This document shows positions 5,731-27,246 of a DNA stretch of 53,044 bases, one piece after another. Position numbers and translations under genes: made by a program. Location: the IMG/VR virus record IMGVR_UViG_3300044530_001358, positions 1 to 53,044 of that record. One strand, written 5' to 3'. The stretch comes from a virus. Within the stretch, counting starts at the first letter, position 1. Each line of letters starts with the position of its first letter. The notes beneath the pieces are model-generated. The model had not been told where the DNA came from. It did no database searches and worked only from the letters and a program-made list of their open reading frames with translations.

Positions 5731-6096
5731 TTAGTCAATTCCAAGTAAATGCATTCCTTTATCAATTATGTCTCCGTGGTCAGAAATACACTGTTTGTAT
5801 ATCATTTTATCTTTTGGTGTCATCTTAGTATTAGTCTCGTAACCCCATACTCCATCATTATCAACACCAATACTTGATTGATATTTTGCAATTGCTTGAG
5901 CACTTTTAGAGTTAGGTAAATTACCGATACTACCATCTAATTTTAATGATTGTCCTGCATCATCTTTAATTCCTTTTTTATTTAAGAAACATTGGATTGC
6001 GATATTAATTTTGTAATTTTCATCCTGTTCTTGGATGACTCTTTTAACGATATTCATTAAATCACCTTCAGTTAATTTTATAATTTTCTTTGCCAT
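5731..6096 (-). CDS. Tagged peptidoglycan-binding-like protein
   Basis: 121 aa. The start at 6096 (MAKKIIKL) is chosen over an upstream in-frame ATG at 6144, which would overlap the previous gene. Residues 8-24 (LTEGDLMNIVKRVIQEQ) form an amphipathic segment ending in I-Q-E-Q, which fits the [L/I]-x-E cleavage rule of T4-type prohead proteases. The remainder (AIQCFLNKKG, DGSIG, AIAKYQSSIGVDNDGVWG) resembles PG_binding_1 modules that bind peptidoglycan. It is the middle gene of a three-gene minus-strand operon. Virion location and wall binding are inferences. It is acidic and lacks a catalytic wall-hydrolase domain. Confidence 0.75.
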   Translation of the reverse strand: MAKKIIKLTEGDLMNIVKRVIQEQDENYKINIAIQCFLNKKGIKDDAGQSLKLDGSIGNLPNSKSAQAIAKYQSSIGVDNDGVWGYETNTKMTPKDKMIYKQCISDHGDIIDKGMHLLGID

Positions 6097-6118
6097 ATTT
6101 TTACTATTATACTTAGTT

Positions 6119-7150
6119 TTATGATACTTGTGGAGAACCCCCAAACATTGTAGTAAAAATATTTGAGAATCCGTCTTTATTATTTAAATTAATACTTCCC
6201 ATATTAAACAATGAACTTGCAGAGTTACCTGAGTTCCTATTTTTAATGTATTGGTCAATTTCTTCTTTAGATGGTGTAGTTTCAGGGGTTTGTTGTTTTG
6301 TCACCATATCTCCTTTTTCAAAGTTTTGTGCGATATAATCACTTGTTTTTGGGTCTTCTGCAACTTTTTTTCTAAATTCGGCATCATCTGATAATTTTCT
6401 TTCAAAAGTAGATAATGATGGTATTCCAAAGTAAGCTAATAAATTATTTGCCACAATAAATTGTCTAAAAGCATTTCTTCTATCTTGTCTTGCTCCAACA
6501 TTCAACCACCATCTTTTAATGCCTGTTTCAGGTAGAACACCACGTTTTTCAAAATACTTAGATAATCTTTGTCCTTGGAAATAATCTTTTAATCCTGTTT
6601 TGAAACTTCCGCCTGCGATAACCTCTTTACCACCTGCCTTAATTCCACTTAAAGCTTTATTACCAGTAATCATATCTAAACCACTTCTTAATTTTGACGC
6701 TAACCCCGGACTAACTTTTTCAATTCCTTTAACTGTATTTTGAACTGCAGGTTCTTTAACGTATTTACCTAAACTACTAAACTTTTTAGCTATTTGAGGG
6801 TTTTTTGCCAAATATTCTGTTAATGTTTTACCTCCTGCTTTCATGGCCGCAGCTCCTCCTCCACTCCCTTTGAATAATTTAATAATCGGTTTAGCAATAA
6901 AATCACCAACGGTTGGGATTAACGCTATTAACATTAACGCTGCGTATAATTTTTCACCTTTATAGAGGTAGTAACATATTAAAGCAATATCAGCAATTTC
7001 TCCAACAACAGGAACAAACCCTGCAGCCATTAAAATATTTTCAAAACTAAATAAAGATTCATTAATGGTTCCTTTTTTGGATTTTTGTTCACTTAAAACT
7101 TTATTGGTGATAAGTCCCAATTGTTTTTCAGTTATTATAATTTGACTCAT
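6119..7150 (-). CDS. Tagged membrane-hairpin (pre-toxin-like) protein
   Basis: 343 aa. Residues 4-22 (IIITEKQLGLITNKVLSEQ) repeat the tag pattern of the downstream gene and end in L-S-E-Q. Residues 41-90 contain AAGFVPVVGEIADIA, a hydrophobic stretch, then ALMLIALIPTVGDF: two apolar helices bracketed by P-x-VG-[ED] turns. This arrangement recalls the pre-toxin/TG linker found before toxin domains in polymorphic toxins. The C-terminal 250 residues are basic, helical and unrecognised (KRWWLNVGARQDRRNAF near residue 215). It is the first gene of the operon, with an exact TATTTATA box 14 nt upstream. A packaged or injected membrane-active protein is an inference; a structural role is equally possible. 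Confidence 0.75.
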   Translation of the reverse strand: MSQIIITEKQLGLITNKVLSEQKSKKGTINESLFSFENILMAAGFVPVVGEIADIALICYYLYKGEKLYAALMLIALIPTVGDFIAKPIIKLFKGSGGGAAAMKAGGKTLTEYLAKNPQIAKKFSSLGKYVKEPAVQNTVKGIEKVSPGLASKLRSGLDMITGNKALSGIKAGGKEVIAGGSFKTGLKDYFQGQRLSKYFEKRGVLPETGIKRWWLNVGARQDRRNAFRQFIVANNLLAYFGIPSLSTFERKLSDDAEFRKKVAEDPKTSDYIAQNFEKGDMVTKQQTPETTPSKEEIDQYIKNRNSGNSASSLFNMGSINLNNKDGFSNIFTTMFGGSPQVS

Positions 7151-7182: not shown

Positions 7183-7208
7183 AAAAAAAAGGGTCGTTAA
7201 ACCCTTTT
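7183..7208 (-). terminator. Rho-independent terminator after methyltransferase gene
   Basis: On the minus strand AAAAGGGT, a 6-nt loop and ACCCTTTT form an 8-bp stem followed by a run of eight T. The stem overlaps the TAA stop of the methyltransferase (7207-7209), so it ends that operon before the next promoter. Confidence 0.85.
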
Positions 7209-8070
7209 ACTTAAACTCTATTTTAGTTTGTTTATTTAAATCAATAAAATGTTGTACCCTTTCTTGTCCAACTTTGGTATAGTTTTCACTCAGTTCGATT
7301 CCAATCCATCTACGACCCAAGGTTTCCGCAGCAACCAAACTAGTTCCGCTGCCAGCGAATGGGTCGAGAACAATATCATTTTTATAAGTAAGAATCTTAA
7401 TGGCCTTTATTGGAACATCCATTGAAAATGTGGCTTTGGTTTGTTGTTTTGTGTCCGCAAAATATTCCCACTGACCATAAACCAAAGACATAAATTCTTT
7501 CTTGTCTTCTTCTTGATAAACCGCTTTAGTTTTTACAGTACCATCTTCTTGTTCCATATCAACCATTTCAGCTTTCCATTGTGGTTCACCTTTAACTTTT
7601 TTAATACGGTCTTTCTTATAGGCTAATATTACACATTCTTTTGGGTTATAAATGTATGGGCTACTTGGTGACATCCATGAACCCCAAGCTGTAGTCTTAC
7701 TTCTGTGTGGTGAGTTCTCATCAAGGTCAACTAACCCATAGAATTGGAACCCGACAGATTTCATCACTGACCAAAACTCAGCCATAAATAAAACCCTACC
7801 TCCTCTATCTTGAACATTAACTTCGTAGGGAATGTTTATAGCAACCCTACCATCATCCTTTAAAAGTCGGAAAGATTCAGTTAACCATTCTTTTGTCCAT
7901 TCCCAATAATCAGACATTGGCATCCTATCATCACAACTATCATAATCAATACCCACATTATATTTTGGGCTTGTAACTATCAAATCAATTGTCGATTCGG
8001 GAATTTCTTTCATAACTTGTACGGAATCCCCATTGATTATGGTGTTAATAATATTTTCTAATTCTCTCAT
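7207..8070 (-). CDS. Site-specific DNA methyltransferase (N6_N4_Mtase family)
   Basis: 287 aa. The order of motifs is that of the beta class: IINGDSVQVMKEIP, then VTSPKYNVGIDYD (motif IV), then VLDPFAGSGTSLVAAE (motif I, AdoMet binding) and RWIGIELSENY. Members methylate the exocyclic amino group of adenine or cytosine, and in phages they usually protect against host restriction. Motif IV reads SPKY where SPPY or DPPY is usual, so activity is not certain. No cognate endonuclease is next to it. The start ATG overlaps the stop of the DUF3310 gene by 4 nt, so the two are translationally coupled. Confidence 0.88.
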   Translation of the reverse strand: MRELENIINTIINGDSVQVMKEIPESTIDLIVTSPKYNVGIDYDSCDDRMPMSDYWEWTKEWLTESFRLLKDDGRVAINIPYEVNVQDRGGRVLFMAEFWSVMKSVGFQFYGLVDLDENSPHRSKTTAWGSWMSPSSPYIYNPKECVILAYKKDRIKKVKGEPQWKAEMVDMEQEDGTVKTKAVYQEEDKKEFMSLVYGQWEYFADTKQQTKATFSMDVPIKAIKILTYKNDIVLDPFAGSGTSLVAAETLGRRWIGIELSENYTKVGQERVQHFIDLNKQTKIEFK

Positions 8071-17999: not shown

Positions 18000-18839
18000 T
18001 TAATAATTTAATATTAACAACTCTTCTCCCATATTTTGTTTTGTACCTTTCTTTGCTGCGGCTGCTTTAGCAAACTCTTTTTTCTCCCATCTATATTTGT
18101 CCTCAGGAAACCATTCATGTAATAAATCAAAATCATAATAAGATAAACTGAACTTACCTTGTATGTTTTTTAAACAATCTGCTAATCTCTCATGGTCTTT
18201 TCTTCCAAAATCATGATTAGAATAATAATTTTCAGTTCGATAATAGGGTGGGTCTAAATAAATGTATGTGGTTGGTGAATCATACTTTTTAATAACGTCA
18301 GCAAAATCCATATTCTCAACATCTGTTATCCTTAAGAAATGTTCAACCCATTCAGGTTTTAATAACTTATCCCTGAATGTAAGATATTTTGATTTATACT
18401 TACCTTTCAAGTCAATGAATGAACTTGTCTCAGGTTTACTACCGCTAAACACAGATGTTAAAATATAAACATACTTTGATGCCACCACATAGTCAGGGTA
18501 GTTAATTGTAAATCCACTCTCAAACAACTCTGATTGAAAGTTATTGAATTGTTCTTTATAGATAGTCGGCGTAATTTCTTCCCCAAATTGTTGACAAGGA
18601 ATAGAATTAATCGCCTCCAACAATAGTGTCGGATTTTTAATACACTGAAATAAATTATAATTCAGTGGATTGAAGTCGTTATAAACGACCTTCTTAAGAT
18701 TAGGGTACTTTGATAAGTCCATGTTAAAGAAACACCAAAACATTCCTCCGAAAGTTTCAAGATATGTTTCCATATCTTCAGGATAGAACGGAACTATCCA
18801 TTTTCCTATTTTTGATTTTCCACCGATGTATGAGATCAT
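18000..18839 (-). CDS. Dam-type DNA adenine methylase (D12 class)
   Basis: 279 aa. MISYIGGKSKIGKWIVPFYP and ETFGGMFWCFFN form the AdoMet-binding motif I region, VVYNDFNPLNYNLF is the acidic motif II, and YIYLDPPYYRTENYY is the catalytic DPPY of alpha-class N6-adenine methyltransferases. A C-terminal GEELLILNY closes the fold. Phage Dam enzymes modify GATC-like sites to resist restriction; the target is not predictable here. It is the second methylase in the window and of a different class from the one at 7207. A TATACTTG sequence at 18855-18862 is a near match to TAnnTTTG. Confidence 0.92.
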   Translation of the reverse strand: MISYIGGKSKIGKWIVPFYPEDMETYLETFGGMFWCFFNMDLSKYPNLKKVVYNDFNPLNYNLFQCIKNPTLLLEAINSIPCQQFGEEITPTIYKEQFNNFQSELFESGFTINYPDYVVASKYVYILTSVFSGSKPETSSFIDLKGKYKSKYLTFRDKLLKPEWVEHFLRITDVENMDFADVIKKYDSPTTYIYLDPPYYRTENYYSNHDFGRKDHERLADCLKNIQGKFSLSYYDFDLLHEWFPEDKYRWEKKEFAKAAAAKKGTKQNMGEELLILNY

Positions 18840-19075: not shown

Positions 19076-19237
19076 ATGGAAAACTACGAACAACAAAAAT
19101 CCGAATGTAAAACATGTAAACAAAAAGGACCAGGAACATTCCAAATTGGAACTATACTTTTAGGTTTTTATATTTTATTCATATCAATTTACGGAACAAT
19201 TGAATTATTTAAACATATTGTTTCTTGGTTTAAATAG
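19076..19237 (+). CDS. Small membrane protein with CxxC, 53 aa
   Basis: The N-terminus has a Cys pair ([11 protein letters not shown]), followed by one hydrophobic helix ([19 protein letters not shown]) and a short basic tail. Single-pass inner-membrane topology is likely. It ends in TAG and overlaps the convergent DnaJ gene by 8 nt. Function is unknown. Confidence 0.65.
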
Positions 19238-20171
19238 TCCTATCAAACTTAACATTTAGTTTTACAAACATATCTCCACCTGAATATCCTTTATTTCTCA
19301 ATCTTAAAGGTTTTGAGGTGTCGAATGTTTTTAACGCGTTCATAATTAAATTTCCATCAGGATGTGGTATTGTAAATGTATCTTGTTTAACTTCCTCTAA
19401 ATTTAAAAATAAATTGTAAACCAAGTCATTATTTATTTTTTCAAATCCATCTTTAGTTACCACTTCTATTTGAATAACCAAATCACCATATTCACCATTT
19501 TTAAAGTCACCTAAATCCGCCAACTTTAAATATTGACCATTATCAACACCAACAGGTAATTTAACATTTATTTCCCGAGCATTGGATTTAACTCCATTAC
19601 CACCACAATTATAACATCTGTGTACTAAAGTATATCCTCTACCCCCACAAGAACCACACGCAGTTCTAATTTGTTGAGTCATAAAACCAGTTCCAAAAGC
19701 TTTAACTTGGAATCCAGCACCTCTGCAAGTATTACACACTTGTTGGTCTCCTCCACTCCCATTACATATGTCACATTTATCATCCTTAATATAATTAATA
19801 GTTTTATCAGAACCTCGGTAAGACTCTATTGGACTAACTTGAACTTTAATTATTTTATCAGGAGCTGACTTTCGTCTTTGGGTATTGTTAAATGGGTTGT
19901 TTTGTTGATTACCAAACATTTGATTAATAAAATCTTCATATGACATCTGATTACCGCCACCAGCAAAAGGATTACTCAAACGATTATCATAATCCTTTCT
20001 TTTATTCTCATCACCAACGATATCATACGCTTGAGCAATTTCTTTAAATTTATCAGCGCCATCAGGGTTTTTATCTGGATGGTATTGTATTGCGAGTTTT
20101 CTGTACGCTTTTTTGATGTCATCTTGAGTAGCGTCTTTACTTACTCCTAATATTTCGTAATAATTATTCAT
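19230..20171 (-). CDS. dnaJ: DnaJ (Hsp40) co-chaperone
   Basis: 313 aa; ATG at 20171 ([10 protein letters not shown]) chosen over an upstream TTG. All parts of a type I Hsp40 are present: J domain with the catalytic HPD (YHPDKNPDG, about residues 32-40), a short Gly/Phe/Asn region ([15 protein letters not shown]), four CxxCxGxG-like zinc-finger repeats ([32 protein letters not shown]) and two C-terminal beta domains ending early. It stimulates the ATPase of host DnaK and hands over unfolded proteins. It is shorter than the usual 370 aa, mainly at the C-terminal dimerisation end. The start codon faces the plus-strand start at 20174 with 2 nt between. Confidence 0.93.
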
Positions 20172-20173
20172 AT

Positions 20174-20821
20174 ATGGCAAACTATTTGGTAGTCTTATTT
20201 AAGAATAAAACAAGAAAAAAAATTATAAAGAAGTTTATAACTTTATCTCGTGCTAAAAATTATTTTAAACAGTTAATTAAAGAGTCTAATGATGTAATTT
20301 TTGAGGTTTTAGTTGAGAATGGTAAAGAGTGTAGATTTGAATTAGGATTAATTGAAATGTCCGTAAATCAATCTGCACCTGTATATATGACCGATGAGTT
20401 TGGTAGAAGTGTTAAGGTTAAGTTAGAAGATGGAGGTATGTCTATATTATCAATAAACCATTACAAAGAAGAAGATTTAATTTATGATGTTAGAAATAAG
20501 ATAAAGATTACCGCCCAGGAATTTATTAAAAAACACTTAAAAGGTGATGGGTTAAAAATGGTATCAGTACTTAACAACAAAGTTATCCTACAAAAAGACG
20601 AAGAAATTGATTTATTTTCACTAAAAAATGAATCAGAGTGTACTAGATTTGTTGAGTCTTTATCTTCATATTTCTTTAAAAGAAAAAGGGGAGACTGTCT
20701 TTTTATTAAAGATTGTTCCTCCCCTCAACGAAAATATTTGTATAGTTTGTTAGAATCTAACGGATTTGATAAAAAAGTTTTATATCGTAAGTTTACGACT
20801 TATCCTGTTCGTCCAAAATAA
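20174..20821 (+). CDS. Hypothetical protein, 215 aa
   Basis: Lys-rich N-terminus ([20 protein letters not shown]) followed by mixed alpha/beta sequence ([38 protein letters not shown]) and a C-terminal Cys-containing part ([20 protein letters not shown]). It is not recognised. The start is face to face with that of dnaJ in the octamer CATATATG, and the end overlaps the convergent gene at 20793 by 29 nt, so no private promoter or terminator space exists. Confidence 0.7.
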
Positions 20822-21026
20822 AATGGAACTCGGTTCCTGATATATCAATAGAAAACTGTTTGTGGTATCTATCAACCTCTCTAAAGTGATTAATGACATT
20901 GGTGTACTCACCTTTAGGTAATTCAAAGATAATGGTACCTTTACCACTAAAAAGGGTTTGGACTGATTCTGCAATCAACGCCAATTTTTCTATTTCCCCA
21001 AAAGTATTATTTTTATTCTCTTCCAT
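20793..21026 (-). CDS. Hypothetical protein, 77 aa
   Basis: Small alpha/beta protein ([47 protein letters not shown]). It has no recognised domain and no membrane segment. Its start lies inside the end of the upstream gene (37-nt overlap), which argues for coupled translation if both are real. Confidence 0.6.
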   Translation of the reverse strand: MEENKNNTFGEIEKLALIAESVQTLFSGKGTIIFELPKGEYTNVINHFREVDRYHKQFSIDISGTEFHFILDEQDKS

Positions 21027-21184
21027 AAACTTAATTTAACGGGCTTAGGAAAAAGCTCGTCTTTTTTTAACCCCTTTATTTCTCTAACAATTTTTTCTTT
21101 TTGTCTATCCAACTCTCTTTTGTCTTTTAGTGTTTCACTATTGAACCAATTCAGTAATTGTTGACTCCTGTCTGTCTTGCTCAT
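20990..21184 (-). CDS. Small basic protein, 64 aa
   Basis: Lys/Arg-rich, likely helical (KDKRELDRQKEKIVREIKGL, then KLSLWKRIKIILLGK). It overlaps its upstream neighbour by 47 nt and its downstream neighbour by 37 nt, unusual even for this compact genome, so the call is moderate. Confidence 0.5.
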   Translation of the reverse strand: MSKTDRSQQLLNWFNSETLKDKRELDRQKEKIVREIKGLKKDELFPKPVKLSLWKRIKIILLGK

Positions 21185-21599
21185 TGTCTAATTCATTCTC
21201 TAATTCTGTATCTAACTCTGTATCAAGGTCTCCCTCATCAAAATCAAAGTATAGATTCTGTAATTTATCTAAATCAGTTTTTTCAAAAGTTTGTTTTAGT
21301 TGTTCTACTGTTTGCTTAAACAATCTTTCTTTTAACTCTCTTTCTTTATTTAATTTAATTACCTTACCAATCTTAACTAAAGTGATTGACATATCTTTTT
21401 CGGCAATTGGACAAATAAATGTTATTCCTTTTGAGTTTTGATCATCAACCTCAAACCCAATAACCTGTCCTTCATCTACTATACTCTTAGGTATAGACCA
21501 TTTAGTTGGGAACTTCATATCAAAACTTAGATATGTCTCCAACTTTCTAATTGAATGGATATATTCAACGAATGGTAATATTTCTTTATAAAAACTCAT
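21138..21599 (-). CDS. Hypothetical protein with acidic tail, 153 aa
   Basis: The N-terminal two-thirds is a mixed fold (SFDMKFPTKWSIPKSIVDEG, GITFICPIAEKDMSITLVKI). The C-terminal part is highly acidic and repetitive (FDEGDLDTELDTELENELDN). The acidic tail could bind a basic partner or mimic nucleic acid, but this is speculation. It overlaps the next gene upstream by 4 nt. Confidence 0.65.
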   Translation of the reverse strand: MSFYKEILPFVEYIHSIRKLETYLSFDMKFPTKWSIPKSIVDEGQVIGFEVDDQNSKGITFICPIAEKDMSITLVKIGKVIKLNKERELKERLFKQTVEQLKQTFEKTDLDKLQNLYFDFDEGDLDTELDTELENELDNEQDRQESTITELVQ

Positions 21600-21784
21600 T
21601 TTTGTAATAGATATGTTATAATATAACTAATTGATACTCCTAAGAGGATAAGTTCCCTGTTACTATAGACCAATGGTTTTGGTTCTTTTTGTAACAGGGC
21701 ACCTAAAAAATTTGTGACATTTTTTAATGACACCAATATTGTGAAAACAAATATAAAAAGATATATTGTATCAATATTATGCAT
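21596..21784 (-). CDS. Small two-helix membrane protein, 62 aa
   Basis: Two hydrophobic helices (YLFIFVFTILVSLKNVTNFLG and LILLGVSISYIITYLL) flank a short charged loop (QKEPKPLVYSNRE). It overlaps the Hc1-like gene by 8 nt and the downstream gene by 4 nt. Size and topology would suit a class II holin or a membrane accessory, but no lysis gene is adjacent. Confidence 0.65.
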   Translation of the reverse strand: MHNIDTIYLFIFVFTILVSLKNVTNFLGALLQKEPKPLVYSNRELILLGVSISYIITYLLQK

Positions 21785-21959
21785 TTTTTTCTGTCTTGTT
21801 GTGTTCTAAAATTTCACCTCTTAATTGTTGAAGTAATGCCTTCAACTCTTGAGCAGATTTTCTAGCTCTTGTTCCTGCGCTTTTGTTACCGCCAAAAAAC
21901 TTTGTAGTATCTACTGAAAGTAATTCAGTCAACACTTTAATTTGTTCTAATGTTTCCAT
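21777..21959 (-). CDS. Hc1-like histone H1 homologue
   Basis: 60 aa. The pattern METLEQIKVLTELL, TTKFFGGNKSAGTRARKSAQ and ELKALLQQLRGEILEHNK matches the short Bacteroidota histone H1-like (Hc1) proteins, whose core is GNxAAGTRARKxxQELKxLAQEIRxE. Those proteins bind DNA and compact the nucleoid. The phage copy keeps the GTRARK core and the following amphipathic helix but lacks the lysine-rich tail of longer Hc1 proteins. It might coat phage DNA, assist packaging or reshape the host nucleoid. Family call is by pattern memory only. Confidence 0.7.
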   Translation of the reverse strand: METLEQIKVLTELLSVDTTKFFGGNKSAGTRARKSAQELKALLQQLRGEILEHNKTEKNA

Positions 21960-22037
21960 TTCTTTAAAAATTGTAATTGTTTATTTTAATAATTAAAAAG
22001 TAAGTTTTTTCCTTCTGGTGTAAATAGAATCAACGAT

Positions 22038-22496
22038 TTATTCCATATTTTTTTCCATTAATTTATATAATTCTGTTAATAAATCTAAATCTGATTTAGA
22101 AAATGTTACCTCAGTGTCAAATATTTCATTTAAAAATTTATCGATTGAATGTTTTATACTAGTTTTAGATTGATTATAGAATGTGTCCATAAAAAAAGAT
22201 TGGAAATATTCTTTGTGATCACCATTTAATTTAATAATAATATTTTCTTTTTTAAAGTCATTAATCATTTTTTTCCAACACCATTCAAAATGAGACGCAT
22301 TATCTTCATCAGATAGCGTTATTTTGGTCTCAGATATGTTTTCTCCGAGATACGTATCCATAATAATTTTGGTTAATGACTTAGAGATATCACCATACAA
22401 TTCAATTTTTTCATAATTCATATTATGAATATTGAACCATATTATAACTTCTTCTTGAGGCATTGGCTTAGTCATCCAATTAAAAAAATTCTCCAT
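22038..22496 (-). CDS. Hypothetical protein, 152 aa
   Basis: Helix-rich acidic protein (KIELYGDISKSLTKIIMDTY, KSDLDLLTELYKLMEKNME), not recognised. Two starts are possible: ATG at 22496 (MENFFNW), which lies inside the 3' arm of a 14-bp terminator-like hairpin, or ATG at 22475 (MTKPMPQEE), which would put the whole terminator upstream. I favour neither strongly; the second is simpler. Confidence 0.65.
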   Translation of the reverse strand: MENFFNWMTKPMPQEEVIIWFNIHNMNYEKIELYGDISKSLTKIIMDTYLGENISETKITLSDEDNASHFEWCWKKMINDFKKENIIIKLNGDHKEYFQSFFMDTFYNQSKTSIKHSIDKFLNEIFDTEVTFSKSDLDLLTELYKLMEKNME

Positions 22497-22520
22497 AGAA
22501 TGTTGTTTCTATGGAGAATT
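22482..22520 (-). terminator. Terminator hairpin reaching into the next start codon
   Basis: On the minus strand AATTCTCCATAGAA, a 6-nt loop and TTCTATGGAGAATT give a perfect 14-bp stem, followed at once by a T run. It ends the 22549 operon. The 3' arm contains the ATG at 22496, so it could also sequester that start. Confidence 0.85.
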
Positions 22521-22548: not shown

Positions 22549-24240
22549 TTATTGAGTTTTTCTATTATAAGATATCAAATTTTTCATTTTCTGTAAATCT
22601 TCGTTGATAATCTTAGTTGCTTTAGCTTCTGTAGACTCCAATTGACTCATGATTTTGTTTGCTTTACCTGTTGAGCCTCCTTTAATACTTTTTAAAGAAC
22701 CTGGTTGTTTTTTACCCCCAGCAATATCAACAGGTGCGATTGTTTTTTTATAAGTACCATTCATTTGTTCTGCACCATATAAATTTTCATCAAAGTTCTT
22801 TTTAAATCTTTCTCCAACCTTCTCACTTCTTTTTGAAACGTTACCTAACGCTTTACCATCTTTTCCACTTACAGCATTACCGTTTTTAGAATCACCTTTA
22901 ATTTGTCTTGAAATCATTTCATCGTCTGGTTTAATTTCATCATAAACAAGATTTGTCATACCAGGATAAGAAAAAGCTTCAATGTATTCCTCAACCGCAT
23001 CTGATGGGTGGTACTTCATCTCATTATGTTCTTTCTCCATGTCGTAATTACTTTGAGGGAAATCGTCAGGATTTTCATCATAACTTCCTCCACCCATATA
23101 CATGTCTTTCATGTAATCTTTCATTTTCTTAACGACTTCTTTAGCATACTTGTCATTTTCTTTTTGACTTTCACCTTGAGCTTTTTCAGTTTTCTTTAAA
23201 CCTTGAGGTTTATTAACACCAAAATTATTTTTTTCTGATGAGTCTTTAACTGTTTGTTCTTTAACAATATTTTCAATCATATCAATTAACTCATTCTCTG
23301 TTAACGATAAAGTATTTTTACTCTCATTAATATTTCCTAATGTTAATGCCATGTTAACTTGTTTTAACAACTTAGAATCCGCATCAGATAATTTTTTATC
23401 ACCTTTAGCTTTAGACATTAAATCTTTCTTAATTGAGTTTAATTTAGTTTTAGATATTTTTTGACTTTCAGGAATCCCTAACGCTTTATGTAACGCACCT
23501 TTTTTCATGTTAGTTTTTTGAATCCATTTGTCTTCAGATTCATTAACATTATATTCTTTACCATCAACTTCAAAACTATCATCACCAGATTTTTTAGCCT
23601 TAGCTAAAGCTCCTGTAAACGCATTACCTTCTTCAGTCTCAGCTTCTTCTTCCAACCCTTTAGCAATTCTAACTCTAAACGGTTTTCCACCGAACTTATC
23701 TTTATATTGATTAAAGAATTTTTCCCCATCATTTGGTGCAAACCATCTTTGATTTTTACCGTGTTTATCCATTAATGATGGAAAGTCTTCAAACTCCTCT
23801 TCATCGTAATCAAAATCAAATTCACCTGTATGTTCTCTGTCAGATTGGTCAAACCAACCATGTCCATCATCAAATGAACCAAACATTTTGTTTCTAATTT
23901 TGTTTTTAATTTTATTATCAGCTAAACCTTTACCAACATATGTTGGTTCATTTTGAGATAATTTTTCAACTTCTTCCTCTTCAGAATCATAACCAGTGTA
24001 AATTTCTTCAACTTCTTTTTTATGTGCTTTAGCGTCTCTTAGTTTTTTAAAATCTGCGGCAGTTATCTTACCTTTAGGTTCGGCAACATCAATTTTGGAC
24101 TGTTTACCACTAAGTTCCTCATCCATTTTAATTTCTTCCCATTGACCTTTTGTCTCTGTGATATGTTTAACTTTAGTCTCAATTTCTTCATTTAAAATCT
24201 TTGAGACTAATTTATCAATATTTTCTTGAAAGTTTTTCAT
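22549..24240 (-). CDS. Acidic prohead core/structural-type protein, 563 aa
   Basis: Strongly charged, low-hydrophobicity protein with long helical and disordered stretches. Several [L/I]-x-E sites occur: KILNEE near residue 16, VNESE and NINES in the middle, LTENELIDMIENIVKEQ near residue 310 and IINED near the end. NAFTGALAKAKKSGDDSFEV, then DGKEYNV, is a segment typical of T4-like head-associated proteins in cyanophages. No catalytic motif is visible. An exact TATTTATA box lies 14 nt upstream, and a strong terminator follows. I infer a scaffold or internal head protein processed by the prohead protease; direct evidence is lacking. Confidence 0.75.
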   Translation of the reverse strand: MKNFQENIDKLVSKILNEEIETKVKHITETKGQWEEIKMDEELSGKQSKIDVAEPKGKITAADFKKLRDAKAHKKEVEEIYTGYDSEEEEVEKLSQNEPTYVGKGLADNKIKNKIRNKMFGSFDDGHGWFDQSDREHTGEFDFDYDEEEFEDFPSLMDKHGKNQRWFAPNDGEKFFNQYKDKFGGKPFRVRIAKGLEEEAETEEGNAFTGALAKAKKSGDDSFEVDGKEYNVNESEDKWIQKTNMKKGALHKALGIPESQKISKTKLNSIKKDLMSKAKGDKKLSDADSKLLKQVNMALTLGNINESKNTLSLTENELIDMIENIVKEQTVKDSSEKNNFGVNKPQGLKKTEKAQGESQKENDKYAKEVVKKMKDYMKDMYMGGGSYDENPDDFPQSNYDMEKEHNEMKYHPSDAVEEYIEAFSYPGMTNLVYDEIKPDDEMISRQIKGDSKNGNAVSGKDGKALGNVSKRSEKVGERFKKNFDENLYGAEQMNGTYKKTIAPVDIAGGKKQPGSLKSIKGGSTGKANKIMSQLESTEAKATKIINEDLQKMKNLISYNRKTQ

Positions 24241-24265: not shown

Positions 24266-25141
24266 TTATTTTATTCTTTTACCTACGTTTTCATACTCAT
24301 GTTCTAAAATAGTCATGATAACGTCTTTACTAACCCCAAGTTTTTTAGCCACGTTTTCAATAGCTTCTTTAACTGATTCGTTTTTACTAATTTTAAGGTT
24401 ATTAATATCACCCTGATTACAATATGGAAATTTGGTACATTTCTTCTTAATTTTTACAAATCCTCCTCCAGGTATTTGAGTCTTTCTACTTGGACCCCAA
24501 TCTTTTTTACTTGTTGATTTAGCCCACATAGATGGTGATTCATAACCACCAACGGATCCAGATGTTGTTGCCTCTTTAGCTTCAACTTTATCAACTTCAC
24601 TTTCTTTTAATTTTGGGTTTTCAGATCTACTTCTTTCCCAAAACTGATTATCTCCACCAAAAACAGGTCCTGAATACGCACCTGATGAACCTGATCCTGT
24701 AGCTTCTTTTGTTTCTATTTTTTTTAATTTAGAATAGTAAGTTGGGTTTTCCCAAAGATGGTCCATGGCGATTTCTTTTGCTTTGGTTTTATCTTTAGTG
24801 TGTTCCATTTCAACTTTAATACCCATACTTAATTCTTTTTTCAAAGAAGAAACCATATTTTTGATATCATAATAACCTTTTTTGTCGTGTTTTTTTGCGA
24901 TATCTTCAATAGTTTTATTATCAGATAAACCACCTTTTAATTTTTCCTCATCAATTTTTTTGGTATTCATCTTTTTATTTAAAAAAGTTTCATACTTATT
25001 ACCATCATCATCAAACTCTTCAGTAAATGATGATTTATATTTTAAAGCATCACCAATTGTTGTGGTATTTAATTTAACATTTGGTTGAGTAGTATATGCT
25101 TTATCAATCGCATTTTTAAATTCAGTTGTAGAATTATTCAT
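24266..25141 (-). CDS. DUF5661-like structural protein, 291 aa
   Basis: The segment VEMEHTKDKTKAKEIAMDHL, then ENPTYYSKLKKIE (about residues 105-140), follows the DUF5661 pattern (H-T-x-D at the start, D-H-L then Y-Y-x-K-L). Two degenerate repeats, KEATGSGSSGAYSGPVFGG and KEATTSGSVGGYESPSMWA, are Gly/Ser linkers with aromatic ends, common in T4-like virion proteins. The C-terminus carries a small helical domain (AIENVAKKLGVSKDVIMTIL). It lies 3 nt after the next gene's stop. A virion role is likely by context. Confidence 0.72.
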   Translation of the reverse strand: MNNSTTEFKNAIDKAYTTQPNVKLNTTTIGDALKYKSSFTEEFDDDGNKYETFLNKKMNTKKIDEEKLKGGLSDNKTIEDIAKKHDKKGYYDIKNMVSSLKKELSMGIKVEMEHTKDKTKAKEIAMDHLWENPTYYSKLKKIETKEATGSGSSGAYSGPVFGGDNQFWERSRSENPKLKESEVDKVEAKEATTSGSVGGYESPSMWAKSTSKKDWGPSRKTQIPGGGFVKIKKKCTKFPYCNQGDINNLKISKNESVKEAIENVAKKLGVSKDVIMTILEHEYENVGKRIK

Positions 25142-25143
25142 AG

Positions 25144-25389
25144 TTAAGCATTTTTAAGTCTTGGTTCCCAATAACCACGGTTCATCCACATAAATTGGTA
25201 GAATTCACGGAACATTCTTAGGGTTATATCTTTAACATCACCTTCAAGTTTACCTCGCTTGATTTCTTTGGAGATTCTGTCTAATAATTTGTCTTCAAAT
25301 TGTTTAATTGTGTTATTGTCCATAAAGTTTCTAATCTCTTTACGAATCATCACTTCAATTTCGTTTTTTTCGGTTGATGTAAGTGCCAT
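25144..25389 (-). CDS. Small conserved phage protein, 81 aa
   Basis: Helical, charged protein starting MALTSTEKNEIEVMIRKEIR and ending in an aromatic motif (REFYQFMWMNRGYWEPRLKN). Similar MALTxxEKxEIExLIRKEI proteins occur in T4-like phages, near head or neck genes, without a firm function. Its ATG overlaps the TAA of the upstream spanin-like gene by 1 nt. Confidence 0.72.
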   Translation of the reverse strand: MALTSTEKNEIEVMIRKEIRNFMDNNTIKQFEDKLLDRISKEIKRGKLEGDVKDITLRMFREFYQFMWMNRGYWEPRLKNA

Positions 25390-25802
25390 TAGTTTGTTAT
25401 TAATAAAAAGGTTAATGTTAAAATGGCAATGCCGGCCAAACCAGATGTAAATTTATTTTTGATTTTTTCTTTTTTTAAATTTAACTCCACTTTCTTTGTG
25501 TGGTCCTCTAAGATTGAATATTTTTGGTCTTGAGCGCCAATGATTGTTTGATAGTTATTTTCTTTAACCCTTAATAAACTTATAACACTATCTTTCATAA
25601 CAACTTTGTTTTCTGTTTCTAACAATTGTTGTTCTGTTAATTTTAACTGAGCTTTAGCAGAATCACCGCTAATTAAATCTTTAGTGATTTGCTTAACAAC
25701 TGGTATAGGAAAACATTTAGTTGGTTGATTATTTGTACCTGTTTGAGAAAAAGCCGTCAAGCTCAGGCTCAGAATACTTATCAACACGATTAATTTCTTC
25801 AT
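25389..25802 (-). CDS. Exported coiled-coil protein with C-terminal TM (spanin-like)
   Basis: 137 aa. Residues 1-18 form a clear signal peptide (MKKLIVLISILSLSLTAFS) with likely cleavage before Q20. A long heptad-rich helix follows (AKAQLKLTEQQLLETENKVV to KKVELNLKKEKIKNK), and residues 118-136 are a hydrophobic anchor (LAGIAILTLTFLLITN). The topology resembles spanins that bridge the periplasm in the last step of lysis, but there is no lipobox Cys at the signal end. The first 74 nt lie in another frame inside the upstream membrane gene, as in Rz/Rz1 pairs. It is 850 nt downstream of the amidase. Confidence 0.72.
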   Translation of the reverse strand: MKKLIVLISILSLSLTAFSQTGTNNQPTKCFPIPVVKQITKDLISGDSAKAQLKLTEQQLLETENKVVMKDSVISLLRVKENNYQTIIGAQDQKYSILEDHTKKVELNLKKEKIKNKFTSGLAGIAILTLTFLLITN

Positions 25803-26085
25803 GATATTTTTTTCCTGTTTTTGTTTTATTTGTTTTTATCTTTGAAATGTTATCATCAATCTTTTCAACTTCTTCGTCAATAAGTTCAATTTTATCTTCT
25901 AAGATATCTTGTTCTTTGTTAAGTTCATTAACAACGTTTGTTAATGAATCAAGTTTAGCTTTATCAATAGCGCTCATTGTACTTGTGTTTGACATAGTCA
26001 TAGCCCAATACAATATAAACAATATTATCAGTGCCGATAAGATTGTATCATAATTTTTAATTACAAAATTTTTAATTGTTTCCAT
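25729..26085 (-). CDS. N-terminal TM coiled-coil protein (i-spanin-like)
   Basis: 118 aa. One hydrophobic helix near residues 13-33 (TILSALIILFILYWAMTMSN) is followed by a coiled coil (LDSLTNVVNELNKEQDILED, then KIELIDEEVEKIDDNISKIK) and a basic tail. This is the layout of an inner-membrane spanin subunit. The gene shares 74 nt in a different frame with the next, exported coiled-coil gene. It overlaps the upstream gene by 1 nt. Sequence cannot separate a spanin from other single-pass coiled-coil proteins. Confidence 0.7.
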   Translation of the reverse strand: METIKNFVIKNYDTILSALIILFILYWAMTMSNTSTMSAIDKAKLDSLTNVVNELNKEQDILEDKIELIDEEVEKIDDNISKIKTNKTKTGKKYHEEINRVDKYSEPELDGFFSNRYK

Positions 26086-26657
26086 TATTTTGGTGATTCT
26101 TTAGTTTTCTTTCTATTTGCCAAAACTTTACCCCATTTAGATTTAAATTTTTGGTAAAATTGTTGAAGTTTATTTATCATATCTAAGAAATCTTCATCAA
26201 CCTTCATCATTTCACCGTTAATATAGATTCCACTGTTTTCACCAATTGTGAATGTGAACTCAATATCTTGGTCAATGATTTTACCCGACCAATCAACATT
26301 ATTTGTATAAACATTTAATGTATTAAAGTCGGCCAAGTCAGAAACTTCCTCTACGAATTCATCCATGGTTTCTTGGAATGCAACTTTTTCGTCAGTTGTA
26401 ATATCCAAATCATTTCTGCCTTTACCATGTAAGGCCAAAATACCACCTGATATTCTATATTTTTGTGATTTATCCTTAGGTGTTTGAGTTTCACCTTCTT
26501 CCTTGTCATCTACCGCGGTCTCGTATTCAGTATCTTGTTCTATTCTACTTTCAATACTTGCCGCCATGTTATCTTGAGTATCTTGCTCAAATAACATTTT
26601 TGATTTTTTAATCAACGATTTTATTTCGTCGTACCTGTCGTTATGTAAATTACCCAT
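26085..26657 (-). CDS. Hypothetical protein with MLFEQ N-terminal segment, 190 aa
   Basis: The N-terminal 25 residues (EIKSLIKKSKMLFEQ) end in L-F-E-Q and resemble the tag of the packaged-protein candidates. A disordered acidic linker follows (SRIEQDTEYETAVDDKEEGE), then a beta-rich domain (YRISGGILALHGKGRNDLDI, IEFTFTIGENSGIYINGEMM) and a basic helical end. It overlaps the amidase gene by 8 nt. A virion role is possible; function is unknown. Confidence 0.68.
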   Translation of the reverse strand: MGNLHNDRYDEIKSLIKKSKMLFEQDTQDNMAASIESRIEQDTEYETAVDDKEEGETQTPKDKSQKYRISGGILALHGKGRNDLDITTDEKVAFQETMDEFVEEVSDLADFNTLNVYTNNVDWSGKIIDQDIEFTFTIGENSGIYINGEMMKVDEDFLDMINKLQQFYQKFKSKWGKVLANRKKTKESPK

Positions 26658-27246
26658 TTTCTATTAGTTTTGTAAAGTTTTCAAAGTTAAATGATGGATT
26701 TAAATCTGTGTATTTTTCGTTAAAATTGCTTCTTGAAACAATTCCTTCAAAATTCTCAACACCGTCAATCTTAGTGTTATGACTTACACAATTTTTTTTA
26801 ATTTGGAATTCATTTATCAGGTAACCACATAACTCAGCAGTTTTTTCAATCTGATTGGTTGTGTATGGTTCCCAAAAGAAGAAGTCCCTCCATTTTTTCT
26901 CGTAAACCTGTTGATTATAAATACTTCCTTTCCAGTTAATATGATAGGTTGTTAGCGGTTTCTTTTCTAACCACCCTAAATTCTCTAAACAAACCACAAT
27001 TGAGTTTTTGTTTATGTTGTCTTCAGTAAAAAAATTGGTATATCCGTTGTTGGGTAACAGTTGTAAAACTGTTCCATTTTTGGTTATGACGTAGTTTGGG
27101 ATTTTATCGTACGTAGAATTGTATCTATATTTAAGGGAGGCTAAGTATTCCTCAACCTCCCTTGAAGTATGACACAAGATGATTTGTTTTTTCTTTTTTT
27201 GTTTGCCAGTAGTTTTGAAGTTTCCGTATTTTTCAATATTAAGCAT
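26650..27246 (-). CDS. Amidase_2-type endolysin
   Basis: 198 aa. IILCHTSREVEEYL, YVITKNGTVLQLLP, NSIVVCLENLGWLEK, TNQIEKTAELCGYLINEF and CVSHNTKIDGVENFEGIVSR, then NFNEKYTDLNPSFNFENF, follow the N-acetylmuramoyl-L-alanine amidase (PGRP/T7 lysozyme-like) fold seen in Bacteroidota phages. H26 and the His of VSHN are the probable zinc ligands, and the SRSNF-to-DLNPSF end is characteristic. It would cut the amide between MurNAc and the peptide stem. No signal peptide, so it needs a holin. It is flanked by membrane proteins on both sides with 8-nt overlaps. Confidence 0.78.
   Translation of the reverse strand: MLNIEKYGNFKTTGKQKKKKQIILCHTSREVEEYLASLKYRYNSTYDKIPNYVITKNGTVLQLLPNNGYTNFFTEDNINKNSIVVCLENLGWLEKKPLTTYHINWKGSIYNQQVYEKKWRDFFFWEPYTTNQIEKTAELCGYLINEFQIKKNCVSHNTKIDGVENFEGIVSRSNFNEKYTDLNPSFNFENFTKLIENG

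Follow-up and report, generated by a model that had tools for sequence, protein, structure and literature searches.

A tail-less Hc1-domain gene in an aquatic jumbo-phage lineage, tentatively assigned an accessory role in phage DNA metabolism

The Pfam name Hc1 comes from the Chlamydia trachomatis protein Hc1 (HctA), in which the conserved N-terminus is responsible for dimerisation and DNA binding falls to the Lys-rich C-terminus (PMC2848022); the title of Pedersen et al. 1996, as cited in PMC3469542, gives the chlamydial protein the same domain roles. Bacteroidota carry a stand-alone version (PF07432, about 58 amino acids [aa]) that has the core GNK[AS]AGTRxRKxxQE and lacks the Lys-rich tail. 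Among phages, PF07432 has been reported in all four complete genomes of the moraphages, which are aquatic, reach about 300 kb, in some cases encode DnaJ, and have Bacteroidota hosts (PMC12619734); in the main text of that paper the histone H1-like protein is not analysed for sequence, gene context or structure. The freshwater Bacteroidetes phages that encode bS21 have genomes of up to 331 kb and a ribosomal S21 gene, and a histone is not mentioned in the main text of the metatranscriptome paper that describes them (PMC9723584). Two annotated phage proteins carry the label histone H1, each in another host and another genomic context than the protein considered here: that of Synechococcus phage S-SRM01 is of the short Hc1 type, with 44% identity over 50 aa, and that of Pseudomonas phage ZC08 is a weak structural match by fold only (TM 0.79, E = 0.26). 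In full-text literature searches we came across neither a study of the tail-less form of Hc1 nor a DNA- or RNA-binding experiment on a stand-alone Hc1 domain.

The gene examined here lies in a 53-kb fragment (53,044 nucleotides, all of it analysed and called the window) from an IMG/VR virus record, belonging to a lineage of aquatic jumbo phages. The gene and its immediate surroundings are as follows.

21777..21959, minus strand: Hc1-domain protein, 60 aa, ATG start and TAA stop, from the open reading frame (ORF) and PF07432.
22038..22496, minus strand: conserved protein of 152 aa, encoded immediately upstream of Hc1, with a relative in 159/160 loci.
21996..22024, minus strand: Bacteroidota-like promoter motif TTTAC-N17-21-TAnn[AT]TT, from comparison of upstream regions.
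21596..21784, minus strand: 62-aa protein with two hydrophobic segments, from lineage comparison.
21138..21599, minus strand: 153-aa protein with beta-sheet, long helix and acidic tail, in the same putative transcription unit as Hc1.

Translation of 21777-21959 on the minus strand gives METLEQIKVLTELLSVDTTKFFGGNKSAGTRARKSAQELKALLQQLRGEILEHNKTEKNA. Pfam-A finds a single family for it, PF07432 (Hc1, histone H1-like), at E = 7.7e-17 and 61.3 bits against a curated cut-off of 23.5 bits, with residues 1-55 aligned to positions 1-56 of the 57-residue domain model, and both the core GNKxAGTRxRKxxQ and the arginine at 47 are present. The preliminary description had called this a phage-encoded Hc1-like histone and proposed the profile comparison; the family assignment is borne out by the profile, the alignment and the conserved context, and the functions attached to the word histone (compaction, protection, silencing) are not. 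Searches of PHROGs and NCBIfam gave no family, and a sequence search for relatives of solved structure gave none. A chance ORF is ruled out by the Pfam match, purifying selection and a constant gene neighbour. Genes of the window match phage primase, exonuclease, SbcC/SbcD, virion-protein and DNA methyltransferase families, and we rule out bacterial contamination on the virus record and its primase, SbcCD, exonuclease, endolysin and virion-protein matches. The two DNA methyltransferase genes of the fragment, of the phrog_56 and phrog_67 types, are at 18000-18839 and 7207-8070; an Rfam search of the window returned nothing.

Compared with HctA, the window protein has the homologous N-terminal domain and stops five residues past it; the Lys-rich, DNA-binding C-terminal half (PMC2848022) is absent. 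The product is thus an Hc1 N-terminal domain standing alone, a form that is common in Bacteroidota cells. PF07432 occurs in 148 of 247 sampled Bacteroidota genomes (~60%), and the copies examined there are mostly about 58 aa and tail-less, which agrees with the earlier suggestion that the core is typical of that phylum; the core GNKSAGTRARK is not exclusive to it, since Fibrobacterota and some alphaproteobacterial/Rickettsiales MAGs have it as well. The phage copies differ from those of Bacteroidota in forming a group of their own, on one weakly supported branch of the Hc1 tree (SH-aLRT 61), the support being weak because the tree has only 61 columns; for the same reason we abandoned using the tree to place the phage clade. 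When 84,980 cellular genomes were scanned with patterns from the window protein, no close relative was confirmed, and the best cellular matches by alignment search have 38-58% identity over most of the domain, with 71% over one short segment.

In IMG/VR, a scan with patterns from the 60-aa protein confirmed 227 relatives, and a scan with the Hc1 alignment at least 414. Identity in the best 80 is 75-100%, and all 80 retain GNKSAG[TIV]RARK. With the window copy as reference, pN/pS is 0.03-0.2 for most lineage members, with synonymous differences close to saturation; the gene is under strong purifying selection. Loci were fetched by way of the neighbouring 152-aa protein alone, which avoids selection by the Hc1 gene itself. 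In 80/80 of the best loci the 152-aa gene is followed directly by Hc1 after a gap of 5-84 nt, and the genes on either side of Hc1 are retained in nearly all lineage loci, so that Hc1 is a core gene of this aquatic jumbo-phage lineage. The IMG/VR contigs are related to one another, so neighbour counts here and below are not independent and, far from dozens, stand for two or three distinct contexts.

Contigs related to the window are as long as 290-326 kb; among 15 that were tested, a tail-sheath match was obtained in 11 and a ribosomal S21 gene in 6. The size, tail sheath, DnaJ and Hc1 of the lineage would fit a possible kinship with the moraphages, and its size, habitat and ribosomal S21 gene a possible one with the bS21 phages; its host is probably a member of the Bacteroidota. 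An Hc1-family protein in such phages is already known from the moraphages (PMC12619734), and the window copy adds a member. Two further genes of the wider neighbourhood have recognisable products.

19230..20180, minus strand: DnaJ-like chaperone downstream of Hc1, with a J-domain, CxxCxGxG repeats and a match to phrog_14336 at E = 7.8e-59; a relative is found in 77/80 loci.
26650..27246, minus strand: N-acetylmuramoyl-L-alanine amidase (endolysin), PF01510 at E = 1.8e-11, 4.7 kb upstream of Hc1.

Just downstream of the amidase region, the minus-strand genes 25389-25802 and 25729-26085 overlap by 74 nt. One product of the pair, of 118 aa, has a coiled coil and a membrane segment at its N-terminus; the other, of 137 aa, begins like a signal peptide and has its membrane segment at the C-terminus. 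We considered spanins for this pair on the basis of topology. The genes at 20793-21599, 20174-20821, 26085-26657 and 24266-25141 are strictly conserved in the lineage and have no significant family match, with DUF5661 lying within the last of them, a 291-aa gene. A short motif like LTENELIDMIENIVKE is found in two otherwise different proteins, those of 22549-24240 (from residue 313, and also in its homologues) and 5731-6144 (from residue 24), and a search of ORFs from bacterial loci, about 400,000 aa in all, did not match it; it is possibly a targeting or cleavage signal.

The window copy of the promoter motif reads TTTAC-ACCAGAAGGAAAAAACT-TACTTTT and ends 36 nt before the Hc1 ATG. The motif is similar to the known promoter of Bacteroidota (TTTG and TAnnTTTG). 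It is positioned 45-68 nt before the Hc1 ATG in 52-53 of 69 distinct lineage upstream regions, where shuffling leads one to expect 0.7; since the lineage loci are related, that count measures conservation and not 53 independent events. The same motif precedes the 152-aa gene in 23/69 regions and one other gene in 10/65, and most neighbouring genes in 0-1 loci. Because it stands before Hc1 and, apart from those two genes, is nearly absent nearby, Hc1 probably begins its own transcription unit, and the host type of the motif suggests that transcription by a host sigma factor, without phage late functions, is possible. The window and many of its relatives have an 8-nt overlap between the end of Hc1 and the start of the 62-aa gene, and the two genes are otherwise adjacent, so they may be translationally coupled. 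The 62-aa protein has a relative in 159/160 loci and no significant match in family searches; a holin was considered for it from its topology. The 153-aa protein likewise has a relative in 159/160 loci, and its AlphaFold2 model (mean pLDDT 74.6) has no match in the PDB with E <= 0.001 and none that is informative. Upstream, at the start of the 152-aa gene, 22487-22520 (minus strand) contains a 14-bp hairpin and then a T-run that looks like an intrinsic terminator, of which the 3' arm and the T-run are the gene's first codons (ATG GAG AAT TTT TTT). This start codon pairs upstream in 69/70 distinct lineage sequences, at a mean of -16.0 kcal/mol versus -4.7 for shuffled sequences, and compensatory changes are seen at +5, +4, -2 and -3.

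The 60-aa protein has a pI of about 9.2 and a net charge of about +2, with +5 in the segment 23-47 and slightly acidic ends. Its AlphaFold2 single-chain model is a helical hairpin of helices 3-22 and 27-59 with a mean pLDDT of 95.8. This predicted two-helix hairpin is neither the three-helix histone fold nor a winged helix, which sets the protein apart from core histones and eukaryotic H1. Foldseek with the model against the PDB and BFVD gave nothing at E <= 0.001; the PDB matches listed include no histone, and no structural neighbour of known function was found there. We do not use the fold-match lists for function because small helical hairpins match many unrelated proteins. An alignment of 47 phage and cellular sequences shows no variation at G24, A28, R31, R33 and R47 and conservation of 91% or more at each of N25, K26, G29, K34, Q37, K40 and Q44. 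On an idealised helical wheel, R33, Q37, K40, Q44 and R47 share one side of helix 2 (200-280 degrees), distinct from its hydrophobic face, which is near 110 degrees. The amphipathic hairpin is compatible with N-terminal dimerisation. The polar stripe R33-Q37-K40-Q44-R47 is the best candidate for a surface that would contact nucleic acid or a partner; it could instead be the dimer interface, which counts against the reading we prefer.

Among annotated phage genomes, only 20 of 50,697 records gave a match, including S-SRM01, Lak phages and metagenomic phages of 460-640 kb; Hc1 loci in other phages were found with a cellular-type query. In the largest such group, an SSB-family gene is upstream of Hc1 and UvsX downstream. 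A second group has the order ribonucleotide reductase, Hc1, a 250-aa gene, DNA polymerase, UvsX, and in the 462-kb phage L082 Hc1 is preceded by a dUTPase-like gene and followed by genes for a homologue of the 250-aa protein and for a DNA polymerase. Some other groups have no such neighbours, and a few have endolysins. Many of these relatives are neutral or acidic, with net charges of -3 to +3 across two phage groups other than the window's lineage and of -3 to +2 in the relatives beside SSB/UvsX. Two phages of 630-640 kb, L084 (LR745206, 5001-5216) and L085 (LR756502, 4902-5138), have an insertion in the first part of Hc1. In L085, the gene just upstream of Hc1 encodes 178 aa, and the C-terminus of its product is rich in Lys and Ala (KKVAAKKAAPKKVAAKK); the basic tail and the Hc1 domain may there be on separate proteins.

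Our preferred reading, held tentatively, is that the protein is a dimeric accessory factor that binds nucleic acid or nucleoprotein in phage DNA metabolism, and not a head-packaging histone. With the pairing domain present and no tail to grip DNA, a helper in DNA metabolism is likelier than a proven phage histone. By analogy with dimerisation of the chlamydial N-terminal domain, two 60-aa hairpins would pair through the hydrophobic faces of both helices into a four-helix dimer, on which K26/R33-Q37-K40-Q44-R47 would face nucleic acid or a nucleoprotein partner, for instance the recombinase/SSB complex. The protein would then have an accessory or architectural role, with low affinity, on phage DNA during replication or recombination, and may form mixtures with the Hc1 of the host or take its place. 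A point against this accessory-factor reading is that in the window's lineage Hc1 is not beside SSB or UvsX, the nearby genes being those for the amidase, the spanin-like proteins, DnaJ and unassigned proteins.

It is rather unlikely, to our minds, that the phage domain instead forms mixed dimers with host Hc1 and so, at an early stage of infection, alters transcription in the host or the structure of its chromosome, as a form of subunit mimicry. Such a role would fit with the frequency of Hc1 in the sampled Bacteroidota genomes, with the conserved part being the dimerisation domain, with the host-type promoter-like motif, and with the other copies of host proteins carried by the lineage (DnaJ, and ribosomal S21 in 6/15 related contigs). 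Against it, the host copies examined are also tail-less, so loss of the tail cannot make the phage copy dominant-negative, and the phage copies form one divergent group without a close cellular relative. The preliminary description had raised silencing of the host nucleoid and protection of phage DNA from nucleases, and nothing was found that supports either.

We regard it as unlikely that the domain is an adaptor between proteins in general and has no role with nucleic acids, in which case the name histone would have been carried over from Chlamydia. The N-terminal half of Hc1 is the one reported for dimerisation and DNA binding is assigned to the other half, acidic or neutral members retain the same core residues, and the PDB offered no functional neighbour; set against these are the conserved Arg/Lys/Gln stripe of helix 2, away from the hydrophobic face, and the repeated association with replication and recombination genes.

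A phage histone that coats and condenses phage DNA late in infection, is packaged in the head, or does both, as also suggested for moraphages (PMC12619734) and as first proposed for this gene, has the family name, the mild basic charge at pI 9.2, the packing needs of very large genomes and the endolysin genes within a few kb of Hc1 in the window and S-SRM01 on its side, and is nevertheless quite improbable given the missing Lys-rich tail, a net charge of only about +2 here and of -3 to +2 in the relatives beside SSB/UvsX, the host-type promoter-like motif, the replication-operon context in other phages, and, as measured to the genes for tail sheath and S21, a distance of tens of kilobases or more in the long relatives. 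Bulk condensation of DNA inside the virion by the Hc1 protein is accordingly not favoured.

Hc1 domains are present in about 60% of sampled Bacteroidota and in many aquatic phages, yet our searches turned up no account of the function of the tail-less form. A testable lead comes from the contexts in phages, which point to replication and recombination over packaging. It is conceivable, though doubtful, that tail-less Hc1 is a widespread and unrecognised accessory factor of replication or recombination, and not a packaging histone, in several unrelated groups of aquatic phages, retained between SSB and UvsX or next to ribonucleotide reductase and DNA polymerase, and that the Bacteroidota copies may share this role. 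For phage annotation, the label histone H1 rests on the half of Hc1 that is without the known DNA-binding activity.
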